Assembly (NCBI GenBank): GCA_003218345.1
Contig: QHNF01000008.1
Coordinates: 1 to 10,159 of the forward strand
DNA from: Verrucomicrobiota bacterium
Lineage (GTDB): Bacteria > Verrucomicrobiota > Verrucomicrobiia > Chthoniobacterales > UBA10450
Length of the DNA: 10,159 bases
Direction: 5' to 3'
Shown: positions 662-8,715 of the stretch, piece after piece
Layout: every line of letters begins with the position of its first letter
Numbering within the stretch: position 1 is the first letter of the stretch
The notes under the pieces: generated by a model
The model's database searches: none
What the model was told of the DNA's origin: nothing
Seen by the model: only the letters and a program-made list of their open reading frames with translations
Translations under genes and position numbers: made by a program

Positions 662-3600
662 ATGACAGAGCTCGTCTCATCGGTGGCAGATAAAATAGAC
701 CGCGCTGTGCAGCGGGTAACGCCGCTTGCGTACCGGGTGCGACGGACTGGCCGCCGCTGGATGCGCCGTGCGTTACGCAAGCCACGCAGTGTCTCGGAGG
801 GGCCGAATCTGCTGCCCTTGTTAATCCAAGTACTGGCGAGTTTCACCAAGGCGGACGGTGTTCTGCTCGAGGAAGAGATCGACTCAAGCCTTGGTTTTCT
901 TCGGTACGATTATCCGGAGGCCGTTTACTCCGAACTGCGACAGCTGTTTCGGCAAGCGCTTTACGAGCAGCAGGACCTCGCTGCCATGGCGCAGAAACTC
1001 GGCGTGCAGCTGAGCACCGAGCGCAAGATCATGCTCGGCGTTCAGCTCTACGATCTGATCTCGCAAGCTGGTTTGAAACAGGAACAGGTCGTCGCGTTCT
1101 ATTCGTTCATGTCGCAGATGGGGATGGCTGCGCAAGCGATCGACATCGTTTATCAACTCAACGCGTCTGAGGATTCGGATCCGTCGATCTACCAGCACGG
1201 AGCGTCGCCGCTCGAATCGCTCTCCTTCGGAGCAAACGGCAACGTGGATGTGGTGGTCAAGAATCTCGGCGAGACCGATCGCCTGATGGCCTTTCGTTAT
1301 CACGAACTCATTTTGCTAAAGAATTACAGCGGACAGAACGTTTCGGTGCGCGGGAGACCATTAGTGCGTGGCGGATTCTCCCGAATTTATCCTGGCCAGC
1401 GCATCCTGGTAGGCGACCAGGTACTCAGCTATCAAGAGCTGGCGCAGTATTTCAATGCCAAGAAAAACGTTTCGCTTCCCCAAATTTTCATTCGTGTAAA
1501 CAAGGACTCGGATGAAGTGGAACTGGAGCGTTCGCGAACGCGTGAAAGCTCGCTTCGGGTTGCGTTTGGATTGAAGGTGCGGGTGAAGGCGCTGCGCGAT
1601 GTAGATGCTGAGCTCAATGGGGTGAAGCTAAAAATCGGCGCGCAGGTCGATGCGACTCTGGAAGACAAGATTCTTTTCCACAACGACAGCGAATTGGATT
1701 TGAGCGATCTGCGCCGGCGGGCTCGCGCGCTGGGTGGCCGATTCCAACTGAAAGCCTCAAAATCCGAATACTTGGTTTCGAACGATCCGAGCCGGCTGGA
1801 AGCTGACGATATTCTGCTCTCCCCGGGCACGAGTGGCGACGTGCTGCTGAAGATTTTCTGCGATTACGATCAGCGGGTGGGCACCCTGGAGATCATTGAA
1901 GCGGATCGTCCGATCATGGTAGGCGACAGCCCGGTACGCACGACCGCGCAACTCAAAGACGGCGATACCATTCGAATCGATATCGGGCAATTTCTGCGGT
2001 GCAACTTTTCAGAGCGAATCATAGAAGAAGAGCGCAACATCATTCGCACACTGGAAGTAAACGAGATCACCTACCGATTTGGCAAAGGTGAGGTTGGCTT
2101 GGAGGGAATTTCCTTTAGCGTCACGCGTGGCGAGCTTGTTTGCGTGATGGGCGCGAGCGGTTCGGGTAAAAGCACGCTCCTGAGAGTGCTGGCTGGCCAA
2201 CTCCAGCCTACGAGCGGGGAAGTCATCCTTAACGGACAGTCGCTCTATCGGAATCTCGACGTCTTAAAGCACTACATCAGTTACATGCCCCAACAAGACG
2301 CTTTCGACGAACATCTCACCATTAGGGAGAATCTGCTGTTTGCGGCTGCGATTCGCGCGCCGCACCTCTCACGGCGCGATCGCACACGACGATTGGACGC
2401 GAAGCTAGTCGAACTCGGATTGGGCGAACGCCGGGACGCAGTCGTGGGCAGCCCGGAGAGCAAAACGCTGAGCGGTGGCGAACGGAAACGTCTCAACATC
2501 GGGCTCGATATGATTGGGATGTCCGACGTTTATCTGTTCGATGAACCGACTTCCGGTCTTTCCTCAAAGGATTCCGAGCACGTCATGGAAATTATTCGGA
2601 GCATGGCGCACAACAAAATCGTTGTTGTCACGATTCACCAGCCAAGCTCGAAACTTTTCCAGATGTTTCACAAGGCAATCTTGCTCGATAAAGGCGGGCG
2701 CCTCGTGTTCTTCGGGACGCCCTCCGACATGCTGCGCTATTTCGCCGAAGCGGAACACCAACATCAGTTCGGGGCAGAACTGGGCGCATGTCCAGCGTGC
2801 GGAACAACGCGCCCGGAATTCATTTTTGACGTGCTGGAGACGCCACTGCGCGATTTCAGCGGCGACGTGATTTACGAAGAAAACAGCCGCGGCCAGCTCG
2901 GCGCTGCGCGCCGTTCTTCGCCGGAATTCTGGCGAGATAAATACGAGGCGTTCCGCTTGATCCAGGACGTCAAACAAGTTTCCCTGCGGAAAGAGCCGGT
3001 GGCTCCGTTACCCGCCGCCCCGATCCAGAAGAAGCGGCTCCCAATCCGCTGGCACGACGAATGGACGCAATTCCGGACGCTGCTGCGCCGTTCTTTCGTA
3101 AGCAAAATGCGCAACCGCGCCAACCTCGTCATTACGATCGGGGTTTCGCCTGTGCTGGCGCTGCTCATTGCGACCATTTTGCGCTATTCAGAAAGCGGGA
3201 CATACGATTTCGCTTCCGCTTATCACATTCCGACATTTTTGTTTCTCGGACTGATCGTCGCAATGTTTCTCGGCCTGACCAATAGCGCAGATGATATCAT
3301 CCGGGACCGCCCCGTGCTGCAACGTGAGCGCAATGTCAATGTCCGTTTATCGTACTACATCATTTCGAAAATTCTCACGCTCGGGGTGTTTGCGCTCATT
3401 CAGTGTGTCCTTTTCGTCCTGATCGGCAATTACGTCCTGCAGATTCGGGGAATGTTTTGGATAGATCTCGGGATCATGTTTATGACGGCGATGGGCGGGC
3501 TCGCGCTGGGTCTGCTCGTCTCGTCACTGGTGGCCGATCCCAAAACGGCGGCCAACATCGTCCCGCTCGTTTTGATTCCGCAGATCATCATGGGTGGCGC

Positions 3601-4264
3601 CCTCATCAAATACGAAGACATGAACCAGAACCTTGCTCTGGTTTATGCGCTCTCGCACTGGTTCTCCGAACATCCGAGCACGGACAAAAGTAAGAAGATG
3701 GAGAGCAAACTGCAGGTGCCATTCGTCTGTCAATTCATCGCCATGCGCTGGTCCTATGAAGAGATGATTGTCGCCCAGGCCAAGCTGAATCCGTTAACAC
3801 GCCGGCAAGACCGCGCCAACGACGAAATTCAAAAGCTCGCGCCCCAAGCGAACACGCCCGAGCAACGCAAACGTCTTAATGATCTCAAGGATGTTCTGGC
3901 AATGCTCTCGGGTCTCGAAGGACGTTCCGGGAAAGAGATCGATCATTATTTGAAATTAATCGACCCGGTTCTCGCCGGGAAACAGGAGTTTGATCGTTCG
4001 CTGTTTAGAGACGCCAATGGTCCGGTTACCGCCGAACAACTCTACGTCAACCAGAAGGTGTCCGACCTGATCTCAAACGCCGAGATGGAACAAAGCGATT
4101 ATCGTCGCGGCGACAGACCAAATGTTTTCTTCGGCGCGCAGAAACGTTATTTCGGGATCAAATTCAGTGTGTTTACCTTCAATACGATTGTCCTGATTGT
4201 ATCGGCGCTTGGATTGCTTGCGCTGCTGCATTGGATTTTGCGAAGGGAACTTAAAGTGCGCTGA
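662..4264 (+). CDS. TerB-like/FHA-like/ABCG-type ABC transporter fusion (ATPase plus permease in one chain)
   Basis: This is a 1200-residue half-transporter with regulatory domains in front. Residues 1-45 are very basic. About 48-165 form a helical TerB/DjlA-like domain with KADGVLLEEEI (63-73). About 180-450 are beta-rich regions, the second resembling the end of an FHA domain (LKDGDTIRI, 431-439) but without clear phosphopeptide-binding residues. The ATPase has Walker A GASGSGKST (497-505), a Q-loop near Q544-Q545, signature LSGGE (603-607), Walker B VYLFDE (623-628) and switch His659, so it should be active. A CPAC pair (C710, C713) lies in the linker. The permease has helices near 822-840, 857-873, 898-922, 931-956, 962-983 and 1168-1190, with a roughly 180-residue extracytoplasmic segment before the last. 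The order ATPase then ABC-2 permease is that of ABCG/White proteins. Substrate is unknown. The first in-frame ATG was chosen; it has no clear ribosome-binding site, and M34 is an alternative. Confidence 0.88.
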   Translation: MTELVSSVADKIDRAVQRVTPLAYRVRRTGRRWMRRALRKPRSVSEGPNLLPLLIQVLASFTKADGVLLEEEIDSSLGFLRYDYPEAVYSELRQLFRQALYEQQDLAAMAQKLGVQLSTERKIMLGVQLYDLISQAGLKQEQVVAFYSFMSQMGMAAQAIDIVYQLNASEDSDPSIYQHGASPLESLSFGANGNVDVVVKNLGETDRLMAFRYHELILLKNYSGQNVSVRGRPLVRGGFSRIYPGQRILVGDQVLSYQELAQYFNAKKNVSLPQIFIRVNKDSDEVELERSRTRESSLRVAFGLKVRVKALRDVDAELNGVKLKIGAQVDATLEDKILFHNDSELDLSDLRRRARALGGRFQLKASKSEYLVSNDPSRLEADDILLSPGTSGDVLLKIFCDYDQRVGTLEIIEADRPIMVGDSPVRTTAQLKDGDTIRIDIGQFLRCNFSERIIEEERNIIRTLEVNEITYRFGKGEVGLEGISFSVTRGELVCVMGASGSGKSTLLRVLAGQLQPTSGEVILNGQSLYRNLDVLKHYISYMPQQDAFDEHLTIRENLLFAAAIRAPHLSRRDRTRRLDAKLVELGLGERRDAVVGSPESKTLSGGERKRLNIGLDMIGMSDVYLFDEPTSGLSSKDSEHVMEIIRSMAHNKIVVVTIHQPSSKLFQMFHKAILLDKGGRLVFFGTPSDMLRYFAEAEHQHQFGAELGACPACGTTRPEFIFDVLETPLRDFSGDVIYEENSRGQLGAARRSSPEFWRDKYEAFRLIQDVKQVSLRKEPVAPLPAAPIQKKRLPIRWHDEWTQFRTLLRRSFVSKMRNRANLVITIGVSPVLALLIATILRYSESGTYDFASAYHIPTFLFLGLIVAMFLGLTNSADDIIRDRPVLQRERNVNVRLSYYIISKILTLGVFALIQCVLFVLIGNYVLQIRGMFWIDLGIMFMTAMGGLALGLLVSSLVADPKTAANIVPLVLIPQIIMGGALIKYEDMNQNLALVYALSHWFSEHPSTDKSKKMESKLQVPFVCQFIAMRWSYEEMIVAQAKLNPLTRRQDRANDEIQKLAPQANTPEQRKRLNDLKDVLAMLSGLEGRSGKEIDHYLKLIDPVLAGKQEFDRSLFRDANGPVTAEQLYVNQKVSDLISNAEMEQSDYRRGDRPNVFFGAQKRYFGIKFSVFTFNTIVLIVSALGLLALLHWILRRELKVR

Positions 4265-5610: not shown

Positions 5611-5703
5611 TTTGAGGGAAATGAACGCGCAACGCAGCGAGGCGTCTAATTGTTCCAGCGGCAAAGTGACAATTCGCTTCGCCGCGTTAAATTAGAGCTC
5701 GAT

Positions 5704-6396
5704 ATGTATTACGGTTTCGGTTTCGGATCTCATTGGCTGCTATATATCGGCATCCCGTTAATCATTGGGATTTGGGCCCAGATTCGAGTAACCAGCGCGT
5801 TTCGAAAATGGGGTGAGGTCCGCGCCAGCTCGAACATCACGGGTGCAGAATGCGCGCGCGAAATCCTGCAAGCGGCCCAAATACTCGATGTCGATGTTGT
5901 CGAGACCAACGATTTTCTGGGCGATCATTACGATCCAACGAGCAAAAAGCTTCACTTGTCGAGCAGCGTTTACCACACGCCCTCGGTCGCAGCACTTGGC
6001 ATCGCTGCGCATGAGACTGGGCACGCTATTCAGCACGCGAAAGCGTACGCGCCGCTCAAGGCGCGAATGGCGATCGTGCCGGTAACAATGATCGCGTCGC
6101 AAATGCTGCCGTTCGTCATCTTGGGCGGGTTGTTCTTTCATATCACGGGCCTGATCACGCTCGGCATTTATTGCTATGCGATTCTACTCATCTTTCAGCT
6201 CATCACGTTACCGGTCGAGTTTGACGCGTCGCGCCGCGCGAAAATCATTTTGCAGCAAATGGGGATTGTGCAGCCAGGGCGCGAAGTCGCTGGCGTGAAC
6301 AACGTGCTAAACGCCGCGGCGCTCACTTACGTGGCCGCATTCATCGCGGCGTTGGGCAACTTGCTCTGGTTGCTATCGATTCGCGATCGGCGCTGA
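5704..6396 (+). CDS. Membrane-bound zinc metallopeptidase, YugP/Zn_peptidase_2 family
   Basis: From the ATG at 5704 the product has 230 residues, which fits the family. An N-terminal membrane helix (about 10-27) runs into the family-like IWAQIRV segment. A cytoplasmic or interfacial stretch follows with GDHYDP (73-78) and KKLHLSSSVY (81-90). The zinc site AAHETGHAIQHA carries the HEXXH residues H103, E104 and H107. Two to three more hydrophobic helices (about 123-142, 144-171) lead to LPVEFDASRRA, whose Glu172 is the likely third zinc ligand. A last hydrophobic helix lies near 207-224. All catalytic residues are present, so activity is expected; the substrates of this family are poorly known. 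An in-frame TTG at 5650 would add 18 residues, but the family starts with a short segment before the first helix, which favours 5704. Only a weak GAG lies upstream. The gene is followed closely by the sigma-factor gene. Confidence 0.85.
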   Translation: MYYGFGFGSHWLLYIGIPLIIGIWAQIRVTSAFRKWGEVRASSNITGAECAREILQAAQILDVDVVETNDFLGDHYDPTSKKLHLSSSVYHTPSVAALGIAAHETGHAIQHAKAYAPLKARMAIVPVTMIASQMLPFVILGGLFFHITGLITLGIYCYAILLIFQLITLPVEFDASRRAKIILQQMGIVQPGREVAGVNNVLNAAALTYVAAFIAALGNLLWLLSIRDRR

Positions 6397-6506
6397 TCGA
6401 CCGCGAGTTGAAGAAGATGAATCCAGCCGTCGCCTTACCCGCTCGTCGAATTTCCGATTTGTTGTCGTCCGGTCTCGATGCTCGTGTTAATTCTAAGCGC
6501 GAGGCA

Positions 6507-7103
6507 ATGGACCAGCCAAGAACTGACCCAGATCAGGAGTTGGTGAAGCGTACGCAATCGGGCGATGCCAGCGCTTTCGATCAACTGGTGATCAAATATA
6601 CGCCGCGTCTTTACGGCCTGGTTTATAACATGACTTCGAATCACGAGGACACGAACGACCTTTTGCAGGACATTTTTTCCAAAGCTTACAAGGCGATTCG
6701 CGGGTTCCGTGGCAAATCATCCTTTTACACTTGGATTCATTCCATCGCGGTGAACATGACGCTCAATTTTCTCAAGAAACGCGGCCGGCGTTTTCAACTG
6801 AGTCTGGACGACGTGGATGCCAGCATTCAAAACGACAAGGAGTTCCTGGAATTGACGGCGACGAGCAGTCCAGTGCGAGAAGCGGACCTGTCCGAACTGC
6901 AGCGAAGATTGAACGAGGCCATGATGAAATTGTCTGATGAACACAGAGCCGTGGTCACCATGTTTCATATACAGGGGATGCCCCACGCGGAGATCAGTAA
7001 AATCTTGCGTGTTTCGGAAGGAACGGTACGTTCGAGGCTCTTCTACGCGAATCGGCAGTTGCAAAATTATCTGGACGAATTTCGGAAAAACCCTGTTTCT
7101 TAA
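6507..7103 (+). CDS. ECF-type RNA polymerase sigma factor (sigma-E-like)
   Basis: From the ATG at 6507 the product has 198 residues, typical for ECF sigma factors. Region 2 spans about 24-94, with FDQLVIKYTPRLYGL, the DTNDLLQDIFSKAY core-binding segment and FYTWIHSIAVNMTLNFLKKR for -10 recognition. A charged linker follows. Region 4 spans about 136-187, with LSDEHRAVVTMF and the helix-turn-helix PHAEISKILRVSEGTVRSRL that reads the -35 element. Region 3 is absent, as expected. Earlier in-frame starts (ATG at 6417, TTG at 6408) would add 30 or 33 residues of no recognisable domain, and GAGG lies just before 6507, so 6507 was preferred with moderate certainty. The next gene begins 12 nt after its stop and encodes a single-pass membrane protein, the usual place for an anti-sigma factor. 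The target promoters are unknown. Confidence 0.9.
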   Translation: MDQPRTDPDQELVKRTQSGDASAFDQLVIKYTPRLYGLVYNMTSNHEDTNDLLQDIFSKAYKAIRGFRGKSSFYTWIHSIAVNMTLNFLKKRGRRFQLSLDDVDASIQNDKEFLELTATSSPVREADLSELQRRLNEAMMKLSDEHRAVVTMFHIQGMPHAEISKILRVSEGTVRSRLFYANRQLQNYLDEFRKNPVS

Positions 7104-7115
7104 TCCGCGCTGAAA

Positions 7116-7607
7116 ATGGACGAGTTTAACGAGAACGAAATCGCGAGACTGCTTCGGTTGAAGCGCTATGAGCAACCACCGCCTGGCTATTTCGAAAATT
7201 TCCTGCACGAATTTCACCGCCGCCAGCGCGATGAATTGCTTCGCCAGCCGCTTTGGCGCATCTGCTTGGAACGCGCTCACGACTTCGCGTTCCGGCTGGA
7301 TGTTCGTTCTCTCGCCTCGTATCCCGCTGCCGTCGCGGCGGTCCTGGTCTGCGCCGCAGTTATTTCATTGAAGATTTATCAGCAACCGGAGACGGCTCGC
7401 GTCGCCGTCCAGAGTCCGCCCGCTTTCTTGGCGCCGGCGAATGCTGAGGGAGAATGGACTCTTGCATCTCCGGTGGCTACGCAGATTTTTAGAACGCAGC
7501 CGGTTCGCAGTTTCAATGAAAGCGCCCAGACTCACCGAGCCGCGGCCCCGCCGCGCTATGTGCTCGATAGCGTTCCCGTGAGTTATGAGCCGACTTTCAG
7601 ATTTTAA
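7116..7607 (+). CDS. Single-pass membrane protein in anti-sigma-factor position
   Basis: This 163-residue protein starts 12 nt after the sigma-factor stop, so the two are probably co-transcribed and made together. Residues 1-65 are charged and probably cytoplasmic, with LLRLKRYEQPPPGYFENFL (12-30) followed by a basic helix rich in Arg and Glu (31-43). A hydrophobic helix lies at about 66-88. Residues 89-163 are Ala/Pro-rich and probably periplasmic, ending in PTFRF. The order (cytoplasmic N-terminus, one helix, periplasmic tail) fits an anti-sigma factor. No zinc-binding HXXXCXXC motif is present; the only cysteines are C50 and C79. I do not recognise a named domain. The role is inferred from position and topology alone; it could instead be a membrane anchor or an accessory protein. 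The ATG has no Shine-Dalgarno sequence. Confidence 0.75.
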   Translation: MDEFNENEIARLLRLKRYEQPPPGYFENFLHEFHRRQRDELLRQPLWRICLERAHDFAFRLDVRSLASYPAAVAAVLVCAAVISLKIYQQPETARVAVQSPPAFLAPANAEGEWTLASPVATQIFRTQPVRSFNESAQTHRAAAPPRYVLDSVPVSYEPTFRF

Positions 7608-7645
7608 GCGCGGTCTAGCCCGACTTGCCTCCGGCGGGTCGCGCA

Positions 7646-7665
7646 TTCAAATTTCACAAATTGAA
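7646..7665. repeat. Short AT-rich inverted repeat upstream of the HtrA-like gene
   Basis: TTCAA-A-TTT (7646-7654) and AAA-TTGAA (7658-7665) can pair around CAC with one bulged A. It lies in the 73-nt gap before the ATG at 7681 and stands out as AT-rich in GC-rich surroundings. It might be an operator or a weak attenuator. The stem is short and no function is shown. Confidence 0.3.
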
Positions 7666-7680
7666 AATCTGCGCCACATT

Positions 7681-8715
7681 ATGTCCCGCAAAGCTGCGTT
7701 CGCACTGATTTTCTTCTCCGGCGCGAACTTGCTGTTTGCGCAGGAGCAGTCCGCCACCGCAATTAGCCACCAGGTTAAAGACATCTTTGGGCGCGCCGCC
7801 AAAGCGGTGGTCAAGATTCATGGCGTCGATCAACACAGCGAAATCTGCGGAACCGGATTTTTCATCGATCCCACAGGGACGCTTTACACCGCATACACGG
7901 TTGGAGGTGAAGCGGGCAATTTCACAGTTGAATTCGGCGGCAAAAAATACCCAGCGCGCCAGCTTTTGGCGGACATCCGCAGCGGGACTGCCATGTTAAA
8001 AATAGATGAAGCCACTCCAACCCTGCCGATTGGTAAATCCGAAGAACTGGAAGTGGCAACGCCTGTCGTGGCGATCGGTTATCCTTTGGATTTACCGGAA
8101 ACGCCCAGTTTTGGGATGGTCGCAGGATTTGATCGGAAATGTCTCGGCCGCTATTTTTCTACTACCCACGTGCGCCTTAATCTGCCGGCGCAGCGCGGAG
8201 AAGCCGGCGCCCCGCTCGTGAACATGAAAGGAGAAGTCGTTGGCATCGTGGTCAGCAGCCTTGAGAACAACTCGGCGTGTTATGCAGTGCCAATCGAAGC
8301 AGCAGAGAAAATTCGAGGCGATTTCGTGCGTTTCGGCGAGCCCAGGCACGGCTGGATCGGGATCAATGTTTCCATGGCGCGCCAGCCGGTGGAAGGTTCA
8401 CTCGCTGAAATGACGCAGATCATGGAAGATACACCGGCCGCACGTTGCGGAATCAAAGCCGGCGACATTCTCGTACAAGTGGGCCGGAAGAAAGTAACTC
8501 AGCCGGAAGATGTGCTGGATGCCTCGTTCTTTATCACCGCCGGCGACAGCGTCCCGATCACTGTGATTCGGGGGAATCGAAGACTGACTTTTAACGTGCA
8601 GGCTGGTCTTCATCCAGCCAGCCGGAGTGGGCCATTACTCGCTTCCCCTGCCTCGCCCGCGATGAATCAGGCGATTCCGCTTACGCTCGGTTCCGATGTG
8701 CAACGCACGCCATAG
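7681..8715 (+). CDS. Secreted HtrA/S1C-like PDZ protein with degenerate catalytic triad (pseudoprotease)
   Basis: From the ATG at 7681 the product has 344 residues. It starts with a signal peptide (MSRKAAFALIFFSGANLLFA, likely cut before QEQ), so it should be periplasmic. Residues about 40-215 form a trypsin-like fold of HtrA type: GTGFFIDPTGTLYTAYTV (57-74), TAMLKID (103-109), VVAIGYP (129-135) and GEAGAPLVNMKGEVVGIV (173-190). Residues about 224-306 form one PDZ domain (GWIGI, then GIKAGDILVQVG). By direct alignment with HtrA motifs the catalytic His falls on T73, the Asp on G102 and the Ser on A175 (GNSGGP becoming GEAGAP). It is therefore unlikely to cleave peptides by the normal mechanism. 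Four cysteines (56, 154, 200, 256) might form disulfides. An in-frame ATG at 7585 overlaps the previous gene but would bury the signal peptide, so 7681 was chosen. It follows the sigma and membrane-protein genes and probably belongs to that operon. Confidence 0.82.
   Translation: MSRKAAFALIFFSGANLLFAQEQSATAISHQVKDIFGRAAKAVVKIHGVDQHSEICGTGFFIDPTGTLYTAYTVGGEAGNFTVEFGGKKYPARQLLADIRSGTAMLKIDEATPTLPIGKSEELEVATPVVAIGYPLDLPETPSFGMVAGFDRKCLGRYFSTTHVRLNLPAQRGEAGAPLVNMKGEVVGIVVSSLENNSACYAVPIEAAEKIRGDFVRFGEPRHGWIGINVSMARQPVEGSLAEMTQIMEDTPAARCGIKAGDILVQVGRKKVTQPEDVLDASFFITAGDSVPITVIRGNRRLTFNVQAGLHPASRSGPLLASPASPAMNQAIPLTLGSDVQRTP

Follow-up and report, generated by a model that had tools for sequence, protein, structure and literature searches.

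The window analysed here, a stretch of 10,159 nucleotides from a Verrucomicrobiota bacterium, carries on its forward strand a gene for an HtrA-like protein without catalytic residues, referred to below as the pseudo-HtrA, which is preceded by the genes for a putative zinc metallopeptidase, an ECF sigma factor and a small membrane protein. The features of this locus are as follows:

5622..5647, + strand: ECF-type promoter-like site TGAAC-N16-CGTCT, upstream of the zinc peptidase gene
5650..6396, + strand: putative neutral zinc metallopeptidase (PF04298), exact start codon unsure
6408..7103, + strand: ECF sigma-70 factor (Pfam, NCBIfam), exact start codon unsure
7116..7607, + strand: small one-helix membrane protein, presumed anti-sigma factor, between the sigma and pseudo-HtrA genes
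7551..7604, + strand: conserved C-terminal tail of the membrane protein, PRYVLDSVPVSYEPTFRF, presumed PDZ ligand, ending F-R-F
7585..8715, + strand: pseudo-HtrA, with a signal-peptide-like N-terminus, a degenerate trypsin-like domain and one PDZ domain
7849..8247, + strand: Trypsin_2 domain without the catalytic triad (residues 57-189 of the 344-aa form)
7897..7899, + strand: His site, codon ACG, Thr73
7984..7986, + strand: Asp site, codon GGG, Gly102
8203..8205, + strand: Ser site, codon GCC, Ala175
8350..8364, + strand: loop G-W-I-G-I of the PDZ domain (residues 224-228), which we take to be the carboxylate-binding loop from HtrA PDZ structures

By fold and homology the pseudo-HtrA is an HtrA/Deg (S1C-type) protein, in which the trypsin-like and PDZ domains are both present (Pfam Trypsin_2 60.5 bits with a cut-off of 27.6; PDZ_2 42 bits with a cut-off of 27). 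An AF2 model of the protein (mean pLDDT 83, pTM 0.78) superposes on DegQ, DegP and DegS over approximately 280 residues (Foldseek, VIA-align), and the structural matches include DegS solved with YRF and YQF peptides; superposition on DegS/DegP had been proposed as a check in a preliminary description of this DNA. In NCBIfam searches the pseudo-HtrA did not reach the cut-offs for DegS (TIGR02038, 86.8 against 422.95 bits; NF008147, 90.9 against 408 bits) or those for MamO/MamE (34.6 and 64.3 against 800 bits). The PDZ loop is kept across the 102-row family alignment described below, with W225 in 98 rows and G227 in 101 (one row ends before there).

The preliminary description had placed the start of the gene at 7681, giving a protein of 344 aa, but the true start is probably the ATG at 7585, which gives 376 aa and lies inside the 3' end of the membrane-protein gene, because an in-frame ATG 14-26 nt ahead of the upstream gene's stop recurs in 69 of 102 distinct loci (at exactly -20 in 60) and because some close orthologues (L019, L022 and L035) offer no alternative in-frame ATG, GTG or TTG within about 120 nt. 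The open frame spans 7585-8715, and the signal-peptide-like segment (identified by eye) is retained with either start codon. The overlap of the two genes at 7585-7607, where the ATG stands 20 nt before the stop as in those 60 loci, suggests translational coupling. In L022 (5962-6882) the reading frame of the pseudo-HtrA stops short within the PDZ domain, at 307 aa from stop to stop, through either a frame break or a sequencing error.

The claim that the His, Asp and Ser residues have all been lost was borne out. In an alignment with four HtrA paralogues from the same genome, all of which read H-D-S, T73, G102 and A175 fall in the His, Asp and Ser columns respectively, and solved proteins of the DegQ/DegP type (some entries being Ser-to-Ala mutants) align them to the same columns; with these residues in place of the His-Asp-Ser triad, the protein does not qualify as an HtrA/Deg serine protease. 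A contig scan gave 121 relatives, of which the best 80 were taken, comprising 30 close loci (L006-L035, from Udaeobacter, Chthoniobacterales and other Verrucomicrobia) and 50 remote ones. All 50 of the remote loci read H-D-S. The close loci were aligned together with loci from further genomes to give 102 rows, repeats included (such as window/L094 and L034/L117), and the triad is absent from every one of these 102 rows of related loci, duplicates counted. At the His site 76 rows have T or S, one has H and the rest have other residues; the Asp site is G in 91 rows and N in 10, with one row cut short, and is never D; the Ser site is A in 45 rows, G in 41, another residue in 13 and S in two, again with one row cut short (the L035 sequence stops ahead of the Asp and Ser sites). 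A one-off loss in the present copy was considered and is ruled out, because the orthologues at the same locus are triad-less too and none of the rows keeps the set, which is what the preliminary description had wished to know from an alignment of homologues.

An order-level survey found a match at E<=1e-40 in 162 of 197 sampled genomes, part of these being read residue by residue; the matches in G092, G105, G055, G125 and G089 each hold one stop codon in their span, possibly the end of the gene. When a broader profile was run on genomes drawn from the whole phylum, 37 of 387 sampled genomes scored at least 241 bits, with the next match at 207 bits, and all 37 of the top-scoring proteins were triad-less, while five proteins fetched from under this gap all read H-D/E-S (5/5) and had no sigma gene found upstream. 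The gap is valid within the phylum draw only, as one remote active HtrA reached 233 bits with the same profile. Matches to the PDZ domain only (L177-L180, L188, L192 and L194) were not counted as HtrA, and six more matches without a locus span the PDZ part only, by their listed ranges. A tree was built on a choice of the available rows, 43 of them inactive and 26 active, and one branch with 100/100 support splits the two groups. These comparisons show the loss of the triad to be ancient.

Whole-protein dN/dS, another of the proposed checks, was 0.06-0.13 for the pseudo-HtrA against 13 orthologues, ratios which are rough as dS was saturated in several pairs, and the protease domain had the lower dN/dS in 9 of the 10 pairs in which both domains were computable. 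No stop was seen inside the matched part of the gene in any of the 30 close loci. Judged by its pattern of codon substitution, the pseudo-HtrA is under purifying selection, and the earlier view that the loss was selected, rather than a sign of decay, is well supported by the triad-less orthologues, the open frames, the dN/dS values and the fully supported branch. That the gene is nevertheless a pseudogene or drifting relic has a negligible probability in our view; three catalytic residues are gone and the L022 frame ends early, but we reject decay because of the selection and the open frames of 30 out of 30 close loci, and a match present in 162 of the 197 genomes of the order also speaks against it. 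A rebuilt active site, using other residues such as the conserved His163/Arg165 for catalysis, is very improbable, though not to quite the same degree. R165 is nearly invariant (alignment A4) and neither H163 nor R165 varies within the close set (A1), but several other lineages have Y, F or L in place of H163 and the oxyanion loop has a Ser in just 2 of the 102 rows, and this reading was rejected because no nucleophile is kept. Nor does a competent set of His, Asp and Ser appear elsewhere in the alignments, and neither of the two outcomes that the preliminary description had named as refuting its view, such a set or a triad kept by most homologues at the locus, was observed.

The product of 6408-7103 is an ECF sigma factor, having both region 2 and region 4 of Sigma70 (PF04542 and PF08281 in Pfam and TIGR02937 in NCBIfam, all over cut-off). 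In close loci the genes for the zinc peptidase, the ECF sigma factor, the small membrane protein and the pseudo-HtrA follow one another in this order, with ligA or other genes after them; the zinc peptidase gene is upstream of the sigma gene in close relatives and in only part of the other loci. The PF04298 metallopeptidase gene heads the operon in close relatives, and its product could act as a protease in this circuit. The pseudo-HtrA gene has an ECF sigma gene upstream, with the membrane-protein gene between them, in 95 of the 102 rows, and of the seven rows without one, six are at contig ends and the seventh is L123, in which an apparent sensor kinase and response regulator (by eye), and not a sigma gene, precede the membrane protein and the pseudo-HtrA. 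The sigma / membrane protein / pseudoprotease order is maintained while the other neighbours change. In one draft genome (L018:834-2022) the sigma factor and membrane protein form one 396-aa open frame, which is either a fusion or a sequencing error. Elsewhere in the window, 662-4264 encodes a protein of 1200 aa in which ABC ATPase and ABC-2 membrane domains follow approximately 480 residues, and for these residues no Pfam family was found at E<=0.001.

The promoter-like site TGAAC-N16-CGTCT is present in 25 of 27 close loci, always with a spacing of 16, and this conservation suggests that in the branch of close relatives the operon is controlled by an ECF sigma factor. The site was found in none of the 43 other distinct regions scanned, some of which had little upstream sequence. 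An exact search of the window's own genome returned one match (the operon's own) against three for a backward control, and so no regulon was derived from the motif. None of the upstream regions scanned (0 of 95 and 0 of 33) contained the classical sigmaE motif GAACTT-N-TCnnA.

The membrane protein consists of N-terminal helices, a transmembrane segment (by eye), a variable linker and a conserved tail. Neither Pfam nor NCBIfam gave a match for it at E<=0.001, nor did it match any described anti-sigma family; its weak model (mean pLDDT 59) shows three helices plus one more that presumably spans the membrane, and Foldseek gave nothing for it at E<=0.001 (three matches, with E from 3.1 to 8.3). 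Mean column identity over 23 sequences was 0.84 for the N-terminal part, 0.83 for the helix, 0.59 for the linker and 0.91 for the tail. The 102 distinct copies end in F in 92 cases, in Y in 9 and in M in 1 (the copy of L222), and for the last residue after clustering at 50% identity the counts are F in 46, Y in 7 and M in 1 of 54 clusters. These tail counts are of distinct sequences only; the membrane protein was not readable in L020, L030 and L224, which begin at or near the pseudo-HtrA gene, and in L100, L101, L102, L110, L116 and the last-added loci its open reading frame was taken by position and not by profile. As controls, an F or Y C-terminus occurs in 4.3% of 652 mechanical ORFs of at least 250 aa from the same loci, the sigma factors end with 1 F and 1 W among 67, and none of 89 pseudo-HtrA C-termini is aromatic. 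At position -3, the membrane protein has F or Y in 47 of the 102 copies and L in 23.

The aromatic end persists in families whose remaining tail is unrecognisable, and it is not a by-product of the gene overlap, because an F or Y end is also seen in 32 of 33 membrane-protein copies that lack the overlap, and the final Phe is written with either codon (TTT 51, TTC 41). For the S-Y-E part of the tail, on the other hand, it may be the overlapping start codon and not protein function that preserves the residues, and since Y-E coincides with the next gene's start codon, the C-terminal residues are the only ones made to carry the argument here.

Further indications came from genomes of the order without a match to the pseudoprotease. 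Of these 35 genomes, 20 were searched for the membrane protein and 8 have it, although one of the eight, G186, does encode the pseudoprotease, broken by a contig end. In genus g40 (four genomes) the sigma factor and membrane protein are kept with no pseudoprotease after them, the tails end in K, K, P and Q, and the HtrA-like matches elsewhere that cover the catalytic region are H-D-S. This supports a pairing of tail and pseudoprotease, as the aromatic end and the pseudoprotease are both absent, albeit in one lineage. In genus g32 (three genomes in which the membrane protein was found) the sigma factor is kept and the pseudoprotease is missing, but the tails end in F in 3 out of 3, so that the aromatic end can persist without the pseudoprotease and something else, perhaps an active HtrA, can read it; this too is one lineage.

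The preliminary description had offered a non-proteolytic role as sensor, chaperone or scaffold. The non-proteolytic part of this stands, but the roles themselves are generic, and of these the operon favours one, namely a receptor for the membrane protein whose gene lies between the ECF sigma gene and that of the pseudo-HtrA. We propose, with a probability of about 60%, that the membrane protein is the anti-sigma factor of the ECF sigma factor encoded beside it, as its position in the operon suggests, and that the pseudo-HtrA is a non-catalytic DegS-like receptor whose PDZ domain holds the tail of the membrane protein. Speaking against this are the absence of a match between the membrane protein and any described anti-sigma family, the F-ending tails of genus g32, the apparent two-component genes upstream in L123, the Met end in L222 and the possible preservation of S-Y-E by the start codon. 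The end of the tail (...F-R-F-COOH) would sit in the PDZ domain of the pseudoprotease, with the upstream tail residues perhaps lying along the dead substrate groove, and the bound pseudoprotease would keep a separate site-1 protease away from the anti-sigma factor, in the way that RseB protects RseA. Misfolded outer-membrane proteins with similar C-termini (two Omp85 proteins found in the same genome end in YQF and FAF) could then displace the tail from the PDZ domain by competition, after which proteolysis, including that by an RseP-like site-2 protease (an RseP-like M50 peptidase is encoded in the genome), would release the sigma factor. Shielding with competition is the likeliest mechanism by analogy with known systems, though the direction could be the reverse, with exposure and not shielding as the result of binding. 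The wider proposal, of a phylum-wide envelope-stress circuit of the Verrucomicrobiota that is gated by a dead DegS and in which the C-termini of unfolded outer-membrane proteins displace the anti-sigma tail from the PDZ pocket, is more tentative, and we consider it possible but somewhat more apt to fail than to hold. If true, stress would be detected by displacement instead of by allosteric activation of a protease.

The same tail could alternatively be a recognition signal (a degron or docking site) for an active HtrA site-1 protease, with the pseudoprotease as an adaptor for delivery or in mixed oligomers. Active HtrA paralogues exist in the window's own genome, genus g32 has an F-ending tail and an active H-D-S HtrA in the absence of the pseudoprotease, and in magnetotactic bacteria MamO is described as promoting MamE activity by its presence and not by its triad (PMC4794232, available text). 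Against this, genus g40 has several H-D-S HtrAs, yet neither an aromatic tail end nor a pseudoprotease, and we regard an active reader as unlikely. HtrA proteins also have chaperone roles, and the pseudoprotease might act in the periplasm to chaperone or trap misfolded outer-membrane proteins; its gene would then be a target of the sigma factor, it would not touch the membrane protein, and the tail would serve some other purpose. The PDZ loop would suit the C-termini of outer-membrane proteins such as the two Omp85 proteins, and an ECF-type promoter-like site does precede the operon, but a chaperone of this kind leaves the aromatic C-termini of 101 out of 102 membrane proteins unexplained, including those whose tail is otherwise unalignable, and we hold it to be a little less likely again than an active reader.

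Should the pseudo-HtrA be a receptor for the tail, it would form part of a related circuit built on a non-cutting protein, in bacteria that are abundant in soil and water and poorly understood, and it would offer an experiment of nature on what share of DegS function is due to PDZ recognition and what share to catalysis. The prediction is small and cheap, as it involves one 18-residue peptide and one PDZ domain. In the open-licence literature there was no triad-less HtrA beside a sigma factor in Verrucomicrobia among the listed matches, nor one linked throughout a phylum both to a sigma factor and to a membrane protein with an aromatic end, which does not prove absence.

Envelope-stress signalling of this type is known in detail mainly from Proteobacteria, where RseB has a different fold from the HtrA-PDZ proteins. 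The Verrucomicrobial locus resembles the DegS-RseA-RseB-sigmaE system of E. coli and the AlgW-MucA-MucB (AlgU) system of P. aeruginosa in that it combines an ECF sigma factor, a one-helix membrane regulator and an HtrA-PDZ protein. DegS and AlgW are activated through the PDZ domain by aromatic C-termini, YYF and WVF (PMC8545111, available text), whereas here the HtrA has no triad and is encoded in the sigma operon, and it is the membrane regulator itself that bears the aromatic C-terminus. RseB and MucB, according to the same text, bind the periplasmic part of RseA and MucA and block site-1 cleavage until the signal arrives (PMC8545111); the proposed shielding of the anti-sigma factor would be similar, but the pseudo-HtrA, unlike RseB, is HtrA-PDZ by fold. 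MamO is likewise an HtrA-fold pseudoprotease kept by selection, which has His and Asp with a Thr for the Ser, binds a transition metal via a di-histidine motif and serves magnetite formation (PMC4794232, available text). The pseudo-HtrA differs from it in having lost all three residues and in having a sigma factor and a membrane protein as neighbours. The component parts are of known kinds, and as far as the available texts of these sources go, the nearest HtrA pseudoprotease found is MamO and the nearest circuit found is that of DegS/AlgW.
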